A stretch of DNA of 41,240 nucleotides from Bacilli bacterium. Lineage in GTDB: Bacteria > Bacillota_I > Bacilli_A > RFN20 > CAG-826. Numbering within the stretch: the stretch's first letter is position 1; every line of letters starts with the position of its first letter. This document shows, one piece after another, positions 15,362-41,240 of this stretch. The stretch spans positions 1 to 41,240 of the forward strand of contig JAFSMX010000013.1 in NCBI GenBank assembly GCA_017447725.1. The letters run 5' to 3'. The notes under the pieces are model-generated. The model had not been told where the DNA came from and made no database searches. It saw only the letters and a list, made by a program, of their open reading frames with translations. Both the position numbers and the translations under genes were made by a program.

Positions 15362-15378
15362 CTTGATAATGTTATATG

Positions 15379-17089: not shown

Positions 17090-18520
17090 TTAGTAAGCTC
17101 TAGCAAAGAAGACTACTTTTTCGGCCTTCTTACCACAGACTAAGCACTTATGTTCGAATGGTACTTGATCGAATGGTAAGCAACGAGCTGTGGCTTGATA
17201 AAGTTCTTTAATTTTATCTTCACAAGCTTGATCACCGCACCACATGACTTTGGCATATCCACCACGGTCAAGAATTTGACCAAGTTCTTCAATGGAATGA
17301 GCTTCTGTTGTATGTTCAAGAAGATATTTAAATGCTTTTTGATACATTTCGTGATGAATGATTTCCATTAAGCTAGAAACTTCCTTCACCACATCTTCTT
17401 CTTTAGTAACAAGTTTTTGACCATCGTTACGTTTAGCTAGAACGCAAACACCGTTAGCAATATCACGAGGACCAACTTCTAAACGAAGTGGAATACCTTT
17501 CATTTCGTATTCAGCATATTTCCAACCGGGTGAACGATCAGAGTCATCAAGTTTTACACGAATTCCAGCTTTCTTAAGAACTTCATAATATTCTTTAGCT
17601 TTCTTGATGACTTCTGGGTTTTTCATCATAACTGGAATAATGACGACCTGGATTGGTGCGACCTTTGGTGGAAGAACTAATCCGTTATCATCACCATGGA
17701 CCATGATGATTGAACCAAGCAATCTTGTCGAGACTCCCCAGGAAGTTTGGAATGGTGCTTGAAGTTTATTTTCTCTATTAGAGAAAGAGATTCCGAATGC
17801 TTTAGCAAATCCATCACCAAAGTAGTGTGTTGTTCCACTTTGTAAAGCTTTGCCATCTGGCATTAATGCTTCAATGGAATAAGTTTCTTTTGCACCAGCA
17901 AATTTCTCTTTATCAGTTTTAATACCTTTAACGAATGGAACAGCTAATAAGTCACGTCCCATTTCATCATAGATTTCAAGCATGCGAAGAGCATCTTTTC
18001 GAGCCTCTTCTTCGTTTTCATACATCGTATGACCTTCTTGCCAAAGGAATTCGCTACCTCTTAGGAATGGACGGGTTGTTTTTTCCCAGCGGACAACGCT
18101 GCACCATTGGTTATAACGTTTTGGAAGATCACGGTATGATTCAATAATGTTTTTATAGTGTTCACAAAATAAAACTTCACTTGTTGGGCGAATAATGAGT
18201 TCGTCATCAAGAACGTTTTTACCACCTTTAGTAGCAATTAATGTTTCTGGAGCAAAGCCACTAACGTGGTCTTTTTCCTTTTGGAATAATGAACTTGGAA
18301 TAACTAAAGGCATGTAGACATTTTCTACACCAACATTTTTAAATTTCGCATCTAAATAATGTTGAATTTCTTCCCAGATGGCATAGCCATAAGGACGATA
18401 AATAATAAAACCTTTGACTGAACTATAATCCATTAGTTCAGCTTTTTTACAGACGTCTGTATACCACTGGGCAAAGTCGTCTTCTTGGCGTGTAATAGCG
18501 TCATTTTTCATTTGTGCCAT
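17090..18520 (-). CDS. proS: Prolyl-tRNA synthetase, archaeal/eukaryotic (short) type
   Basis: Charges tRNA-Pro. The 476-residue class II enzyme lacks the editing insertion of the long bacterial ProS and has the archaeal/eukaryotic-type layout also found in Mollicutes and some Firmicutes. Visible motifs include motif 2-like SVVRWEKTTRPFLRGSEFLWQEGHT, TSWGVSTRLLGSIIMVHGDDNGLVLPP, and a C-terminal zinc-binding region with C443-like CGDQACE and CLVCGKK. The Shine-Dalgarno AAAGGAG is only 3 nt from the ATG at 18526 but 8 nt from the ATG at 18520, so the latter (MAQMKND) is chosen. It follows the EAL-like gene by 19 bp. Confidence 0.95.
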   Translation of the reverse strand: MAQMKNDAITRQEDDFAQWYTDVCKKAELMDYSSVKGFIIYRPYGYAIWEEIQHYLDAKFKNVGVENVYMPLVIPSSLFQKEKDHVSGFAPETLIATKGGKNVLDDELIIRPTSEVLFCEHYKNIIESYRDLPKRYNQWCSVVRWEKTTRPFLRGSEFLWQEGHTMYENEEEARKDALRMLEIYDEMGRDLLAVPFVKGIKTDKEKFAGAKETYSIEALMPDGKALQSGTTHYFGDGFAKAFGISFSNRENKLQAPFQTSWGVSTRLLGSIIMVHGDDNGLVLPPKVAPIQVVIIPVMMKNPEVIKKAKEYYEVLKKAGIRVKLDDSDRSPGWKYAEYEMKGIPLRLEVGPRDIANGVCVLAKRNDGQKLVTKEEDVVKEVSSLMEIIHHEMYQKAFKYLLEHTTEAHSIEELGQILDRGGYAKVMWCGDQACEDKIKELYQATARCLPFDQVPFEHKCLVCGKKAEKVVFFARAY

Positions 18521-34245: not shown

Positions 34246-35763
34246 TTATTCAGCCTCTTCAGCCGTATTATCACCGGTATTCTTATTTTTTAAGAAAAGG
34301 AAATAAATTCCAATTAATAAAGCAATCAATCCAATGCCAATTAACTCAACAATTAATCCGCAAGGTTCAAAACTAGAGTTTGGGAACACTCGATCAATTA
34401 ATCCAAGAACATCAATTCCAAGAATAAAAAGTGGAGCAAGATATTTAATCAAAAATGCGAAAACATAATTAAATTTCCCCAGCAAAAGTCCTTCTTCTTG
34501 GAGTTTTTTACTTAAATAACGGAAATCAAATAATTCCTTTTTGTTCTTCGTCGGAAACATAAACCAACCAATACATAAAGAAATAAATAACGCTGCAATC
34601 GGAATCACACATGAGGTGACAATTTGATCAAGAATTTCTAGTAGGTTCAGACATCCGATTGTTAAAACACTCTTTTCGTTTAAAGCAAATCCAAGAGAGA
34701 TTCCTATCGGAATGGAAACAACAAAAATAAATAAAGCAATGAAAATACATGCTTTCTTTCTTTTAATATTAAATCTTTGAATAAGATATTGGGCAGCAAC
34801 TTCAATTAGAGAAATCAAACTAGTAATCGCGGCGATAGCAACCATTCCAAAGAAGAGGAAGGAAACAATCATTCCCGCTGTACCTAATGTATTAAAAATC
34901 ACTGGCATTGATGAGAAAAGTAAGACAATTCCATTGTTATCTAAATCAATGCCTGTTGTTGCTTTATAGTGGTAAATTGCTGGGAAAATCGCTAATCCAG
35001 CAAGTAAAGCAACACCCGTATCAAAGATGGCCACCCAGACCGCACATTTACCAATTTTGATTTCTTTTCCGGTGTATGAACCATAGGCTAAAAGAGCACC
35101 ACAGCCGACCGACATGGAGAAGAATGCTTGTGCCATCGCACCAAGGATTCCTTTTGCTCCTAATGCTTTAAAGTCTGGATTAAGATAGAAATTTAATCCT
35201 TCTTTAACGCCGCTTCCTAAGCAGAGACAATAGATGACAATGCCGATTAAGATAATAATCAAAGTTGGCATCAAGATTTTACTGGCTTTTTCAATCCCTT
35301 TTTTCACTCCAAAAGAGATAACAACAATCGCTAGAGCGAGGAAAATTCCGGAATATAAAATGACTTCCCAAATGTTTCCGGAGAAACCTTTCAGATCAAT
35401 CGGAGTCGATGAGAAGGAATAGACGGTGTATTTAATCGTAAATCCACCAATAACAGTGTAATAAAAGGAGATTAATAGAGCGCCGACAATCATAATTAAA
35501 CCTACCCAACCAAGGTTCGGATGGATTTTTTTAAATGAAGTCACGTTATTAGCTTTCGCTCTTTTACCAATGTACATTTCAGCAATGGATAAAGCTAAAC
35601 CTAGGACAATAACGCTTAAAATGTAGACAAAAACGAAGGCAGCTCCACCGTTTTGACTAGTCTTATATGGAAAAGACCATAAATTACCTAATCCAACGGA
35701 GCCACCGGCTGTCGCTAAGATAAAGCCTAGGCCACTTCCGAAGCTATTTTTCTTTTGACTCAT
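34246..35763 (-). CDS. Sodium-dependent transporter, NSS/SNF family
   Basis: A 505-residue LeuT-fold symporter with 11-12 transmembrane helices. Helix 1 carries the Na+/substrate signature GFILATAGGSVGLGNLWSFPY, with N27 at the LeuT Na1 position. Prokaryotic members import amino acids with Na+. A charged tail ends in EEAE. It diverges from the NRPS gene over 103 bp. TATAAT (35781-35776) lies 12 nt before the ATG and no Shine-Dalgarno is seen. It may feed amino acids to the synthetase or be unrelated; the shared promoter region is the only link. Confidence 0.94.
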   Translation of the reverse strand: MSQKKNSFGSGLGFILATAGGSVGLGNLWSFPYKTSQNGGAAFVFVYILSVIVLGLALSIAEMYIGKRAKANNVTSFKKIHPNLGWVGLIMIVGALLISFYYTVIGGFTIKYTVYSFSSTPIDLKGFSGNIWEVILYSGIFLALAIVVISFGVKKGIEKASKILMPTLIIILIGIVIYCLCLGSGVKEGLNFYLNPDFKALGAKGILGAMAQAFFSMSVGCGALLAYGSYTGKEIKIGKCAVWVAIFDTGVALLAGLAIFPAIYHYKATTGIDLDNNGIVLLFSSMPVIFNTLGTAGMIVSFLFFGMVAIAAITSLISLIEVAAQYLIQRFNIKRKKACIFIALFIFVVSIPIGISLGFALNEKSVLTIGCLNLLEILDQIVTSCVIPIAALFISLCIGWFMFPTKNKKELFDFRYLSKKLQEEGLLLGKFNYVFAFLIKYLAPLFILGIDVLGLIDRVFPNSSFEPCGLIVELIGIGLIALLIGIYFLFLKNKNTGDNTAEEAE

Positions 35764-35803
35764 AACTTAATTCAAATTATATAACAAAATAGTTATTCAT
35801 AAA

Positions 35804-35831
35804 TTGAAATTTATTTTGTAAAATGTATTTA
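35804..35831 (+). promoter_or_regulatory. Candidate promoter of the NRPS gene
   Basis: TTGAAA (35804-35809), 16 bp, TATTTA (35826-35831). The -10 lies inside a palindrome. The Shine-Dalgarno AAAGAGGTG stands at 35853-35861. Confidence 0.5.
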
Positions 35832-35852
35832 TCGATAAATATAAATATTTAT
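35826..35852. promoter_or_regulatory. Adjacent palindromes between the symporter and NRPS genes
   Basis: A perfect 16-bp palindrome TATTTATCGATAAATA (35826-35841) and a 12-bp palindrome ATAAATATTTAT (35841-35852) share one base. They cover the NRPS -10 and run up to its ribosome site, where a bound repressor would block expression. Confidence 0.5.
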
Positions 35853-35866
35853 AAAGAGGTGTCGTT

Positions 35867-38800
35867 ATGAATGAAAGTAAGAAAACTACTTTAGTCAATG
35901 ATGCTGTGCCATTAAACCAAGCACAACTAGCGATTTATTTAGCGTGTCAAAATCAAATAGAAGGATCTAGTTACAATAACCCTGTTCTTCTCCGATTTGG
36001 TTTAGACACAGATGAAAACAAATTATGTGAAGCTATTACAAAAGCTTTTAAAAACCATCGTGGTTTATTCACTTCCATCAGTGTCAATAAAGATGGCTTA
36101 CCTCAAATGAGTTATAGTGAACTCATCGCCAAATTACCTGTTTGTGAAGTAGAAAACGTTACCGAAAAAGATTTTTCAAAGATCAAAGAAAAACTTGTTC
36201 AACCATTTGACCTTTCAAAAGAGAGATTATTTAGAGTCAACTTATTCAAAACGGAAAAATCATTATATTTATTCTTCGATATTCACCACATCGTTTTTGA
36301 TGGATATTCTTTAAACATCTTAATGTCTGAATTAGTTCAGTTCTATGAGGGAAAAGATGTTCCAGAAGAAAAACATGACGCTTTTGAAGCTTCTTTAGAT
36401 GAAGCAAAAAAGAGAAGTGGCAAGAAATATGAAGACGCGAAGAAATGGTATTTAGAAAAGTTCGCCGATGTTGAAGAAGTCTCTTTACCACAAGGCGACA
36501 AGAAAGATAACGAAGTCAAATTTGCTGATTTTGAAATGTCTTTTGACATGAGTGTCAAAGATATTGAATCATTCTGTGAGAAAAACAAGTGTAGTGTAGC
36601 ATCATTTACCACTGCTGCTTTCGGTACACTTTTATCTCTTTATACGATGAATCGAAAGGCCGCATTTGCTTCGGTTTATAGCGGACGCCATGGTGACAAA
36701 TATGAAAACACGGTCTCCATGTTTGTTAAAACTCTTCCTGTTTTATGTCAAAACGATGCAAATTTAACTGTTGTTGACTATGTTAATAACGTTCAAAACC
36801 TACTTCTTGGAAGTATGCTTAACGATGTTTATTCGTTTGCTGAACTTGTCTCTAACTCTGGTTATACCAGTGAGGTTTTATTCGGTTATCAAGGTGATTT
36901 ATTTGAAATCGACGAATTAAAGAAACTCCACGTTGAAAGAGTTGATCTCCCATTTAACGCAACTGGAGAAAAACTCGCTGCTCAACTTTTTAATAAGAAC
37001 AATAAACTTGTTTTCAATATTCAATATCAATCTAATTTATATAGTGAAGAATGGATTAAAAACTTCGCTAAACGCTACGAAAGAATTCTCAAAGCTTTCC
37101 TAACAACAAAGGATTTAAAAGATATTTCCTTAGTCAATAAAGAAGAAGTAGAAGAAATTATCAAAGTATCTTATGGCGGAGATTTGTCCTATGACAAAAC
37201 AAAGACATTTATTGATCTTTTCTTGGAGCAAGTCAAAAAACACCCAGATAAAAAAGTTGTTTTTGATTCAACAAGTTCATACACCTACTCTGAACTTGAT
37301 CAAGCATCGAACAAAGTCGCTCACTACTTAATTTCTCACAAAGTTAAGAAAGGTGAATTCATCACTTTAAAAGTGAACCGTGTCAAAGAATTCTTTGCTG
37401 GTTTTATTGGTGCACAAAAAGCTGGTGCTGGTTATGTCCCAGTTGATCCAGCTTATCCAGAAGATCGTATCGAATACATGATTGAAGATTCGATGTCCAA
37501 AATCACCTTAACTGAAGATGCGATTAGAAAAATCATTGCTGAAGAAAAAGATGATTCACCAATTAACCTTTGTGAAGTAAATTCACCTGCCTACATGATT
37601 TATACTTCCGGTTCTACTGGAAAACCAAAAGGTGTTGTGATTGCTCAACACGCTTTAGTTAGTTTCCTGGCTTGGAACGTGATCGACTTCGATATTAATG
37701 AAAATAGTGTCGTTGCTGAACATCCAAGTTTCTCCTTTGATGCTTCCGTGATTGATTTATACACACCACTTGTTGTTGGTGCTTGTGTCCATATTCTTAA
37801 TGAAGAAGTACGTAAAGACCTTGATTTAGCCTACCAATACATCATTGATCACAAAGTCACAAGCGCTTGTATGTCCACCCAGATTGGTATGTCGATGATT
37901 AACCTTCATCCAGATGTCCCACTAAAATACCTCATTGTTGGTGGAGAAAAGTTCCTCCAGGTCGCGAAAACTAAAGTCAAAGTTTATAACGCCTATGGAC
38001 CAACAGAATTTACTGTTTCTTCATCATATCAACTAGTTGATCAAAGTAGTGATAAAGATGTTCCAATTGGTAAAGCAGTTAAAAATACTTATTCCTTTAT
38101 CTGCGATTATAACGGAAATCTCTTACCTTTAGGTATGGTTGGTGAAATCTGTCTTGCTGGTGCTCAACTTAGTGATGGCTATTTCCACCGTGAAGAACTT
38201 AACATAGAAAGATTTATTCCTTGTAAGTTCCTTAAAGGAAACAAGATGTATAAGACTGGTGACCTTGCCAAGTATAACCAAGAAGGCACAATCGATTATT
38301 GCGGTCGTATTGACTTTCAAGTCAAACTCCGCGGCTTTAGAATTGAGCTCGGCGAAATTGAAAATGTTGCCTCTAATTATCAAGGTGTCCAACAATCCAT
38401 CGCTCTTGTTAAAAACAAGTTACTAGTTCTCTATTTTGTTGCTGATAAGAAGATTGAAGAGAACGACTTAAAAGCGCATATGGCAAGTAGTCTAACCGAA
38501 TACATGGTGCCAAACATCTACATTCAGTTAGATAAAATGCCACTTACTCCAGGTGGAAAGATTGACCGTAAAGCTCTTCCTGATGTTGAAAACAAATCAA
38601 CTGATTTAGTTAAACCAACTAACGAAGATGAACAAAAGATCTACGAAATTTTAGTAAAAATCTTAGGTTACGAAGATTTCGGTATCACCGATGACTTTGG
38701 TGATATTGGTTTAACCTCTCTTAGTGCGATGCAGTTTGCTTCCCTTTTATCTACATCAATGAAGAAAACTATCCGCGTCAATGATTTAGTCAAATATCCA

Positions 38801-41240
38801 ACGATTCAAAAAATCGCCGCATTCCTCGGTTCTAAAGGAGAAGAAGCAACTTATAAACTTCAAGAATTCTATCCTCTCACGATGAATCAAAAAGGTATTT
38901 TAAGTGAGGTTCTAGCGCATCCAGACACCACGATTTATAACCTTCCATTCGTGATTGATTTACCAGAAAAAACTGATTTAAAGAAATTTGAATTAGCTCT
39001 CAAAGCATCCATTGATGCTCACCCATACTTAAAAGCTAAGATTATCGATAAAGATAATAACTTTATGGTGAGACGTAACGATGAAGAAGACGTTAAAATC
39101 ACTCATCTAGCTTTAGAAAGCCTTAAAGGAGGCGTCGAAGAACTAGTTCAACCATTTGATTTACTCAAAGAACCTCTTTATCGCGCCTACATCTTAGAAA
39201 GTAAGACAGGAAACAAGTTCTTCTTCGACGCCCACCACATTGTTTTTGATGGAGAATCTCTTGATGCTTTCTATAGTGATTTAAATAAAGCCTATCAAGG
39301 TGAGAAACTTCAAAAAGAAACTTACACCGAATATGAACTAGCCTTAGATGAAGCTAAACTTCGTGAAAGTGAAACTTACACCGAAGCAAAGAAATACTAC
39401 ACTGATTTACTTGATGGACGTGACACTGATTCATGTCTAGTCAACGACCACTCCGAAACTGGAATTGGTAAACAAGAATTTGAATTAACATTTAAGTTAA
39501 ATCGAAGAGATGTTGATCAATATATTTCTAAGACCAAAACAACAATTAATAGTTTATGGATCTCCTCGATTGGTTTTGCTTTAGCAAAATACCTCAATCG
39601 AGATGATGCATTGTTCGCTACCGTTTATAACGGTCGAAGTGATAGTCGAGTCCTTCATGATGTTGGAATGTTTGTTCATACCTTCCCAGTTGTGGTTGAA
39701 CCATATAAATCTAAAACAGCCATAGATTATGTCCGCACAGTTGGACAACAAATTCAACAATGTATGGCGCATGATCTCTTTAGCTTTATGGAGATCGCCC
39801 ATGACTTTGGTGTGCGTTCAGATATTCTCTTTGTCTATGAAGGAAAGATTTCTCAAAACCTTAAACTAGGTGATGAAGAAATTAAGAACGCTATTCTACT
39901 TCCAAATAATGAAGCGAAAGCAGCATTATTAATCGCCGTTAATGATGTGGATGAAGGATTTAGTATCCACATTGAATATAACGGCGATAAATACCAAGAA
40001 TGGTCATTAAAATCGTTCATCTCTAGCGTGGTGAAAGTCTTTGTCTCATTGGTTAAAAACGAAGACTTAGCATCACTCTCTTTACTTGATAAAGAGGATC
40101 TAAAGAAGATCGATGAATATAACGCGACGGAAGTCGAAATTGTTCAAGATGATATCGTTACTGAATTTAATAAAGCGGCGAAGAAATATCCAAATAACAC
40201 CGCTGTCATCTTTAATGATGAAAAATATAGTTACGCTGAAGTTGATGAATTAAGTAACCAGATCGCCTACTATCTTTCCTCGAAAGGAATTAAGAAAGGT
40301 GATGTGGTCTCGATTCTTATTTCCCGTAGCGCGTTTATGCCAATTACCGCGCTAGGCGTATTAAAGACTGGTGCAGCATATCAACCTCTAGATTGTTCTT
40401 ATCCAGAAGATCGACTCTTATTCATGATTCAGGATGCTAACGCTAAATACCTCATCGCCGAAAAAGAGTTACTTAGTAAAATCCCAGGATGTAAATTACC
40501 AGTCTTAGATGTTAACGAAATTAAGTCGTTAAAGGAAAAGAAAGTCCCACTTGTTGGACCAGACAAGGATAGTTTATTCATTCTTCTTTATACATCTGGT
40601 ACCACTGGCACTCCAAAAGGGGTGATGCTAAGACATCTTAACTTAGTAAACTTTGTTTCATGGTATCGAAGATTCTATAATTTAACGCCAGATAGCGTTG
40701 TTTCCGCATACGCTGGATTTGGTTTTGACGCTTGTATGATGGATATGTATCCAGCATTAACTAGTGGCGCAGCTGTCTGCGTTGTTCCAGATGAACTAAG
40801 AATGAATCTTGATCAACTTGCTAAGTATTTTACTGATAACAAAGTTACGCATTCATTTATGACTACCCAAGTTGGTCGACTGTTTGCAGCCGAAGGTTAT
40901 GAATCCACATTAAAATACCTTTCTGTTGGCGGAGAAAAACTGACACCACTTGATCCACCAAAAGGTTATGAACTTTATAACGGTTATGGACCAACCGAAT
41001 GTACGATTTTCTCCACCACTTATTTAGTGGATAAAATGTTTCATCGTATTCCAATTGGTCGACCACTAGATAACTACAAGTTATACGTTGTCGATAAATT
41101 TGGAAAACAAGTTCCTAATGGTGCTCTAGGTGAGCTCTGGATTTCTGGTCTAGGTGTTGGCTTAGGTTATCTCAACTTAAAAGAAAAGACTGAACAAACA
41201 TTTATTAAAAATCCGTTCTCTAATCAAGAAGGATACGAAA
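35867..41240 (+). CDS. Non-ribosomal peptide synthetase, C-A-T-C-A... (partial, open at right edge)
   Basis: A continuous 1791-codon frame from the ATG at 35867 (Shine-Dalgarno AAAGAGGTG) with no stop before the window end. Domains: condensation C1 (about 12-430; HHIVFDG at 140-146); adenylation A1 (448-905; TSGSTGKPKG near 580, NAYGPTE at 708, YKTGDL, GRIDFQVKLRGFRIELGEIE, A10 Lys K898); carrier T1 (about 920-985; DIGLTSL, pantetheine site S951); C2 (1002-1420; HHIVFDG from 1123); A2 (1431 onward; YTSGTTGTPKG at 1575, NGYGPTE). The enzyme activates two amino acids and joins them, with C1 able to acylate or accept an upstream donor. The second carrier and release domain lie outside. Specificity residues read by eye against GrsA: A1 D-A-I-C-I-G-A-V-S, A2 D-A-M-F-S-G-G-I-F; no safe substrate call, though A2 looks hydrophobic. 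Confidence 0.95.
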   Translation, partial: MNESKKTTLVNDAVPLNQAQLAIYLACQNQIEGSSYNNPVLLRFGLDTDENKLCEAITKAFKNHRGLFTSISVNKDGLPQMSYSELIAKLPVCEVENVTEKDFSKIKEKLVQPFDLSKERLFRVNLFKTEKSLYLFFDIHHIVFDGYSLNILMSELVQFYEGKDVPEEKHDAFEASLDEAKKRSGKKYEDAKKWYLEKFADVEEVSLPQGDKKDNEVKFADFEMSFDMSVKDIESFCEKNKCSVASFTTAAFGTLLSLYTMNRKAAFASVYSGRHGDKYENTVSMFVKTLPVLCQNDANLTVVDYVNNVQNLLLGSMLNDVYSFAELVSNSGYTSEVLFGYQGDLFEIDELKKLHVERVDLPFNATGEKLAAQLFNKNNKLVFNIQYQSNLYSEEWIKNFAKRYERILKAFLTTKDLKDISLVNKEEVEEIIKVSYGGDLSYDKTKTFIDLFLEQVKKHPDKKVVFDSTSSYTYSELDQASNKVAHYLISHKVKKGEFITLKVNRVKEFFAGFIGAQKAGAGYVPVDPAYPEDRIEYMIEDSMSKITLTEDAIRKIIAEEKDDSPINLCEVNSPAYMIYTSGSTGKPKGVVIAQHALVSFLAWNVIDFDINENSVVAEHPSFSFDASVIDLYTPLVVGACVHILNEEVRKDLDLAYQYIIDHKVTSACMSTQIGMSMINLHPDVPLKYLIVGGEKFLQVAKTKVKVYNAYGPTEFTVSSSYQLVDQSSDKDVPIGKAVKNTYSFICDYNGNLLPLGMVGEICLAGAQLSDGYFHREELNIERFIPCKFLKGNKMYKTGDLAKYNQEGTIDYCGRIDFQVKLRGFRIELGEIENVASNYQGVQQSIALVKNKLLVLYFVADKKIEENDLKAHMASSLTEYMVPNIYIQLDKMPLTPGGKIDRKALPDVENKSTDLVKPTNEDEQKIYEILVKILGYEDFGITDDFGDIGLTSLSAMQFASLLSTSMKKTIRVNDLVKYPTIQKIAAFLGSKGEEATYKLQEFYPLTMNQKGILSEVLAHPDTTIYNLPFVIDLPEKTDLKKFELALKASIDAHPYLKAKIIDKDNNFMVRRNDEEDVKITHLALESLKGGVEELVQPFDLLKEPLYRAYILESKTGNKFFFDAHHIVFDGESLDAFYSDLNKAYQGEKLQKETYTEYELALDEAKLRESETYTEAKKYYTDLLDGRDTDSCLVNDHSETGIGKQEFELTFKLNRRDVDQYISKTKTTINSLWISSIGFALAKYLNRDDALFATVYNGRSDSRVLHDVGMFVHTFPVVVEPYKSKTAIDYVRTVGQQIQQCMAHDLFSFMEIAHDFGVRSDILFVYEGKISQNLKLGDEEIKNAILLPNNEAKAALLIAVNDVDEGFSIHIEYNGDKYQEWSLKSFISSVVKVFVSLVKNEDLASLSLLDKEDLKKIDEYNATEVEIVQDDIVTEFNKAAKKYPNNTAVIFNDEKYSYAEVDELSNQIAYYLSSKGIKKGDVVSILISRSAFMPITALGVLKTGAAYQPLDCSYPEDRLLFMIQDANAKYLIAEKELLSKIPGCKLPVLDVNEIKSLKEKKVPLVGPDKDSLFILLYTSGTTGTPKGVMLRHLNLVNFVSWYRRFYNLTPDSVVSAYAGFGFDACMMDMYPALTSGAAVCVVPDELRMNLDQLAKYFTDNKVTHSFMTTQVGRLFAAEGYESTLKYLSVGGEKLTPLDPPKGYELYNGYGPTECTIFSTTYLVDKMFHRIPIGRPLDNYKLYVVDKFGKQVPNGALGELWISGLGVGLGYLNLKEKTEQTFIKNPFSNQEGYE

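Follow-up and report, generated by a model that had tools for sequence, protein, structure and literature searches.

We found that the window, that is, the whole 41,240-nucleotide stretch of DNA analysed here, ends inside a gene that almost certainly encodes a non-ribosomal peptide synthetase (NRPS). Judging from its domains and those of its homologues, the complete enzyme is quite likely a bimodular, reductase-terminated C-A-T-C-A-T-R synthetase making an N-acylated dipeptide aldehyde, and the product is probably a protease inhibitor resembling leupeptin or ruminopeptin. Such NRPS enzymes are common in rumen microbes; what look new here are the loss of the starter module and the widely shared switch genes.

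Results

The NRPS frame and its domains

The open reading frame (35867-41239, forward strand) starts with ATG, runs for 1791 codons with no internal break and is still open at the window end, the contig stopping exactly at 41240, inside the gene. Domain searches and sequence motifs gave the order C1-A1-T1-C2-A2 in the window's own genome. The Pfam content (two Condensation, two AMP-binding and one PP-binding domain) was far over cut-off throughout, and the scores for AMP-binding (462 bits) and Condensation (368 bits) exclude a chance match. HHIVFDG is present in both C1 and C2, the A3 cores of the adenylation domains read TSGSTGKPKG and TSGTTGTPKG, and the carrier serine, whose position was read from the sequence, is S951 (GLTSL). 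The C, A and T domains of an NRPS are thus found in modular order with their catalytic motifs, and the single C-A-T-C-A frame with intact motifs and S951 described in the sequence-only reading is borne out by the ORF, the Pfam matches and the motifs. The features of the locus are the following.

34246-35763 (-): SNF-family sodium-dependent transporter (Pfam), divergent, 103 bp from the NRPS; SNF lies beside the NRPS in 13 related loci
35764-35866 (no strand): intergenic region between SNF and NRPS genes, with the NRPS ribosome-binding site (aaagagg), from the sequence
35867-41240 (+): NRPS gene, 5' 1791 codons, C-A-T-C-A, cut by the contig end; homologues are 2402 aa, C-A-T-C-A-T-R
35897-37159 (+): Condensation domain C1, HHIVFDG at 36284-36304; proposed N-acylating first domain
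37223-38560 (+): Adenylation domain A1, N-terminal core (37223-38185) plus C-terminal subdomain; motif-derived code DAICLVAVSK
38633-38827 (+): Carrier (thiolation) domain T1 from the domain search, S951 at 38717-38719 from the sequence
38861-40063 (+): Condensation domain C2 from the domain search, HHIVFDG at 39233-39253
40166-41240 (+): Adenylation domain A2, code DAMFLVGIF-, with K517 past the contig end; search match 40166-41173

The A2 code is identical in many rumen relatives, and this conserved code suggests a hydrophobic substrate residue.

The missing tail and full-length homologues

Because the contig ends at 41240, the second carrier and the release domain cannot be read in the window's genome. 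A search of the whole bin recovered no copy of the T2-R tail elsewhere, and the PF07993 matches in the same genome were rejected as an R domain, since they belong to ordinary epimerase-type proteins. The NRPS occurs at 96-97% amino-acid identity in four further members of the genus. The gene is complete, at 2402 aa, in two of these four near-identical genomes (UBA4278 and UBA4365, "Bacillales bacterium" in GenBank), as is a homologue of 75% identity in genome G082. All complete homologues are C-A-T-C-A-T-R and end in an AusA-like thioester reductase, so that a stop or frameshift just past the window with no further domains, which the sequence-only reading had named as a possible refutation, does not apply; its expectation of a product of at least two residues is likewise supported. 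The R domain motifs, GATGFLG and YxxxK (YANSK), are seen in the 96-97%-identical relatives, at a place where the window's genome has a gap. The best solved match of this domain is 6vtj (1e-64), which we take to be from Mru_0351 of Methanobrevibacter ruminantium, followed by the AusA reductase 4f6c (1e-35).

Another contig of the window's genome, C38, aligns downstream of the NRPS in UBA4278, UBA4365 and G006, the alignment edge lying about 100 bp after the NRPS stop codon of these three genomes. On locus L061 the alignment of the window runs to position 15374 and that of C38 sets in at 17326, so that the tail falls in an assembly gap of about 1.95 kb, as long as the remaining part of A2 plus T2 and R should be. 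In G006, contigs C10, C23 and C27 (L044, L045 and L163) hold three overlapping NRPS fragments at 93-97% DNA identity, two of which share downstream genes. These are either mixed strains or copies of the gene, and may account for the assembly breaks within the NRPS.

Selection, priming enzyme and acyl supply

The window's genome (G000) measures 0.9 Mb and is 94% complete, in keeping with the earlier description of a large NRPS in a compact genome. Pairwise dN/dS of the NRPS against the four close relatives was 0.055-0.082 overall and 0.09-0.12 for C1, which is slightly less constrained than the rest. All NRPS domains are under purifying selection, as had been surmised from the unbroken frame.

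The NRPS needs a carrier-priming enzyme, and the one phosphopantetheinyl transferase (PPTase) that we detected in the bin, an Sfp-type protein of 199 aa on contig C36, most like AusB, is predicted from its sequence to provide it; the lack of any such enzyme, the other refutation named in the sequence-only reading, does not apply either. We found no AcpS-type PPTase in this 94% complete bin, and the Sfp-type enzyme may also prime its single stand-alone ACP. An IS200/IS605-like tnpA-tnpB pair on C36 (L153:4564-6146) ends about 34 bp upstream of the PPTase gene.

No ketoacyl synthase was found in G000 (94% complete) or in six relatives, so a genome-encoded fatty-acid synthase was rejected as the acyl source. 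The window's own genome also holds no AMP-binding or adenylation enzyme besides the NRPS, and a loader module acting in trans was rejected on this ground. Close relatives have one stand-alone acyl-CoA-ligase-like gene, and the stand-alone AMP-binding gene of G120 has no carrier domain fused or adjoining.

Ancestry of the first condensation domain

In trees of C domains, C1 of the window groups with C1 of the enzymes from G188, Ruminiclostridium, Butyrivibrio and Oribacterium, all of which begin with an additional A-T module (A-T-C-A-T-C-A-T-R or longer). Within this loader-fed set the window clade has a nested position (bootstrap/SH-aLRT 100/97 and 100/100), and the AU test rejects (p 0.011) a tree in which the four loader-bearing C1 form a clade excluding the window clade, a group chosen after the first tree. 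The parsimonious reading of this nested position is that the loader was lost in the window's lineage.

Position 235 is Val or Ile in 12 of the 16 N-terminal A domains and Asp in 200 of the 201 internal ones, and among the four N-terminal exceptions at least one (L065) is in fact part of an internal domain cut off by a contig end. In GrsA, Asp235 binds the amino group of the substrate. The lost loading module was thus probably specific not for an amino acid but for a carboxylic acid that bears no alpha-amino group. Its ancestry among domains fed by acid loaders makes C1 a likely acyl-transferring domain, which would now be fed in trans. This assignment is a phylogenetic one and involves no starter-domain signature, since the best solved relatives of C1 are ordinary condensation domains; the solved-structure search likewise gave no support to C1 as a classical lipopeptide starter domain.

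Alternative readings of the enzyme

The cut at the contig end might suggest a decaying or mis-binned fragment without function. Our data contradict this, and we regard it as highly improbable: synteny with UBA4278 and UBA4365 extends from housekeeping genes into the NRPS, dN/dS is 0.06-0.08, and the full-length frame is free of stops in these two near-identical genomes and in G082. Synteny and dN/dS led us to reject both a pseudogene and mis-binning. The main rival is instead that C1 is idle at initiation and that the enzyme acts as an AusA-like A-T-C-A-T-R synthetase, its free-amine dipeptide aldehyde giving a dihydropyrazinone or pyrazinone like phevalin. The C-terminal two modules do match AusA best, the loading module is gone, the bin has no obvious acyl supply, and the omega of C1 (0.09-0.12) is slightly raised. 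On the other hand, C1 has kept HHIVFDG and is clearly under purifying selection in all pairs, whereas a useless domain of 430 aa ought to degenerate, particularly where the genome is reduced; we therefore hold an idle C1 to be unlikely.

It is also conceivable, but to our mind distinctly improbable, that a separate carrier protein hands C1 an aminoacyl or acyl group in trans, giving a tripeptide aldehyde or an unusual cap. The trimodular relatives (A-T-C-A-T-C-A-T-R) and the stand-alone ACP would fit such a route, but the window's genome lacks a further adenylation domain, the AMP-binding gene of G120 comes with no carrier, and the N-terminal A domains of the relatives have no Asp235 and so would not load an alpha-amino acid. 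The N-acylated aldehyde, which we favour, has points against it too: the reductase is unread in the window's own genome, the bin has neither a ketoacyl synthase nor another AMP-binding enzyme, and the nearest solved structures to C1 are ordinary condensation domains.

Distribution among relatives

An NRPS match (E<1e-100) is present in 39 of the 196 genomes of the family, the window's genome counted, and 5,346 NRPS clusters have been reported in 8,160 rumen genomes (PMC8241843). The surprise of the sequence-only reading, in which secondary-metabolite enzymes were held to be rare in such genomes, is therefore unfounded. We found no relevant report of an NRPS in RF39-like genomes in the open-licence literature. 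A second, more distant NRPS type in the family (36-40% identity) is also C-A-T-C-A-T-R, and its gene often directly follows one for a PPTase and directly precedes one for MATE. The wider relatives come mostly from ruminant foregut Bacteroidales, Lachnospiraceae and Ruminococcus-like genomes, and one from a Thermoplasmata archaeon. Two enzymes of about 4,460 aa from Butyrivibrio and Oribacterium (L068:3563-16978 and L069:3563-16933) read A-T-C-A-T-C-C-A-T-C-A-T-R, the second of the two adjacent C domains being odd.

Switch genes near the NRPS

The downstream neighbours, carried on C38, are a small lipoprotein-like frame, a 714-aa HAMP-SpoIIE-HATPase protein and a 122-aa STAS protein. We clustered 1,036 flanking ORFs of 95 NRPS loci and identified the recurrent families by Pfam: SpoIIE-type phosphatases with a C-terminal HATPase occur at 61 of the 95 loci, STAS proteins at 50, MATE exporters at 26, PPTases at 24, outer-membrane-type proteins at 23, SNF symporters at 13 (the window included) and stand-alone HATPases at 7. 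No sigma factor was found among these recurrent families. SpoIIE ORFs reach 14.1 per 100 kb at less than 2.5 kb from the NRPS and 0.42 per 100 kb at 5-10 kb, and STAS ORFs 11.1 and 0.21, for families picked for their recurrence near the NRPS in interrelated loci and against a background of the 5-10 kb flank rather than whole Bacteroidales genomes.

At least one switch element (SpoIIE phosphatase, STAS or HATPase) is present in 74 of the 90 loci whose flanks span 3 kb or more, a set that spans Bacillota, Bacteroidota and one archaeon; archaeal locus L088 has PPTase, SpoIIE and STAS genes. The window was scored as lacking switch genes only because of the contig end, and C38 supplies them: partner-switching elements (SpoIIE/PP2C phosphatase, STAS, HATPase_c_2) are linked to the NRPS in its own genome. 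HATPase_c_2 is fused to the C terminus of the MATE protein in 17 of the 26 MATE loci. These MATE-HATPase_c_2 fusions, whose HATPase_c_2 domain is anti-sigma-kinase-like and which mostly immediately adjoin the NRPS, include L055:5626-7383 (-), L048:13528-15300 (+), L049-L060, L068, L069, L090, L119 and L129.

Discussion

Synthesis would start with the priming of T1 and T2 by the Sfp-type PPTase encoded on C36. A1 and A2 would load two amino acids, the latter hydrophobic according to the A2 code, and C1 would cap the first residue with an acyl group from acyl-ACP or acyl-CoA, which, the loader module having been lost, must arrive in trans. C2 would then form the peptide bond, and the R domain, seen in the 96%-identical homologues, would release the chain as an aldehyde through NAD(P)H reduction. 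The adjoining SNF protein may import a substrate amino acid, possibly coupled to Na+, and the membrane SpoIIE-HATPase phosphatase and the STAS protein, linked through C38, probably turn the pathway on upon an outside signal. Peptide aldehydes strongly inhibit serine, cysteine and threonine proteases, and protein breakdown in the rumen matters in practice for nitrogen use. Since a bacterium of 0.9 Mb with no detected fatty-acid ketoacyl synthase maintains a 7.2-kb enzyme under strong selection, it must benefit from it.

The rup NRPS has an N-terminal C domain, a terminal R domain and an N-acylated product. The rup enzyme of Ruminococcus bromii and the human-gut NRPSs for dipeptide aldehydes and pyrazinones are, like ours, bimodular and from gut bacteria. 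The window clade, in contrast, has its origin in forms that possessed an acid-loading A-T module, a comparison made by description, and the organism and the A-domain codes probably differ as well. Human-gut bimodular NRPSs, including that for ruminopeptin (rup), have been reported to make dipeptide aldehydes (PMC12327764). The idea that the pathway could be undescribed hence does not hold for the class, the R-terminated bimodular gut NRPSs of dipeptide aldehydes (PMC12327764), but it stands for the clade, the lost loader and the shared switch genes, which we did not find described.

The best NCBIfam models for our NRPS and PPTase are AusA (1192 bits) and AusB (66 bits) of Staphylococcus aureus, although the scores lie far below the cut-offs for these assignments (1191.7 bits against 2500 for the AusA equivalog NF047350, and 66 against 225 for AusB). 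The A-T-C-A-T-R core is shared, and the R domain resembles the solved AusA reductase. However, AusA starts with an A domain (A1-T1-C-A2-T2-R; PMC12153313), whereas the enzyme described here has an extra first C domain that would block or cap the N-terminus.

In Methanobrevibacter ruminantium, mru0068 and mru0351 encode bimodular, C-first NRPSs beside two serine phosphatases, an anti-sigma antagonist and a MatE exporter (PMC2812497), the termination domain being given as a thioesterase in the text and as a thioester reductase in a figure legend of that report (PMC2812497). These enzymes too come from the rumen and have a similar gene arrangement, but their host is archaeal, and in the window clade SNF takes the place of MATE. 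Apart from this M. ruminantium report, we found no description of the lost loading module or of the broad linkage to switch genes in the open-licence literature.

SpoIIE-type phosphatases, HATPase kinase folds and STAS proteins likewise make up SypE/SypA and RsbU/RsbV/RsbW. SypE/SypA pairs a serine kinase with a STAS protein (PMC10120452). To our knowledge, the output of SypE/SypA is not a sigma factor. Archaea have no bacterial sigma factors; in archaea at least, the switch must consequently act on another target. Unlike in these systems, the genes found here accompany an NRPS and, in many of the relatives, also a MATE exporter that bears a HATPase domain of its own, a fusion that suggests the exporter as the target of the switch. 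We tentatively raise the possibility that one mobile peptide-aldehyde cassette is common to the bacteria and archaea of the rumen. In it, synthesis or export would be gated directly, with no release of a sigma factor, by a membrane sensor phosphatase together with a STAS protein and a HATPase kinase domain that is often part of the MATE exporter beside the NRPS; the window's lineage would carry a trimmed form without the acyl-loading module. The link between NRPS and switch genes in three phyla, one archaeon included, offers a testable handle on the timing of synthesis or export.

The HATPase fused to SpoIIE in L061:20058-22202 (-) and L067:17516-19666 (+) has lost the G1-box Asp (NNG or SNG, not DxG), and the window genome's own copy on C38 (L175:1911-4055, +) also reads NNG. 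From this motif, the kinase half of the SpoIIE-HATPase protein in the window clade may fail to bind ATP.
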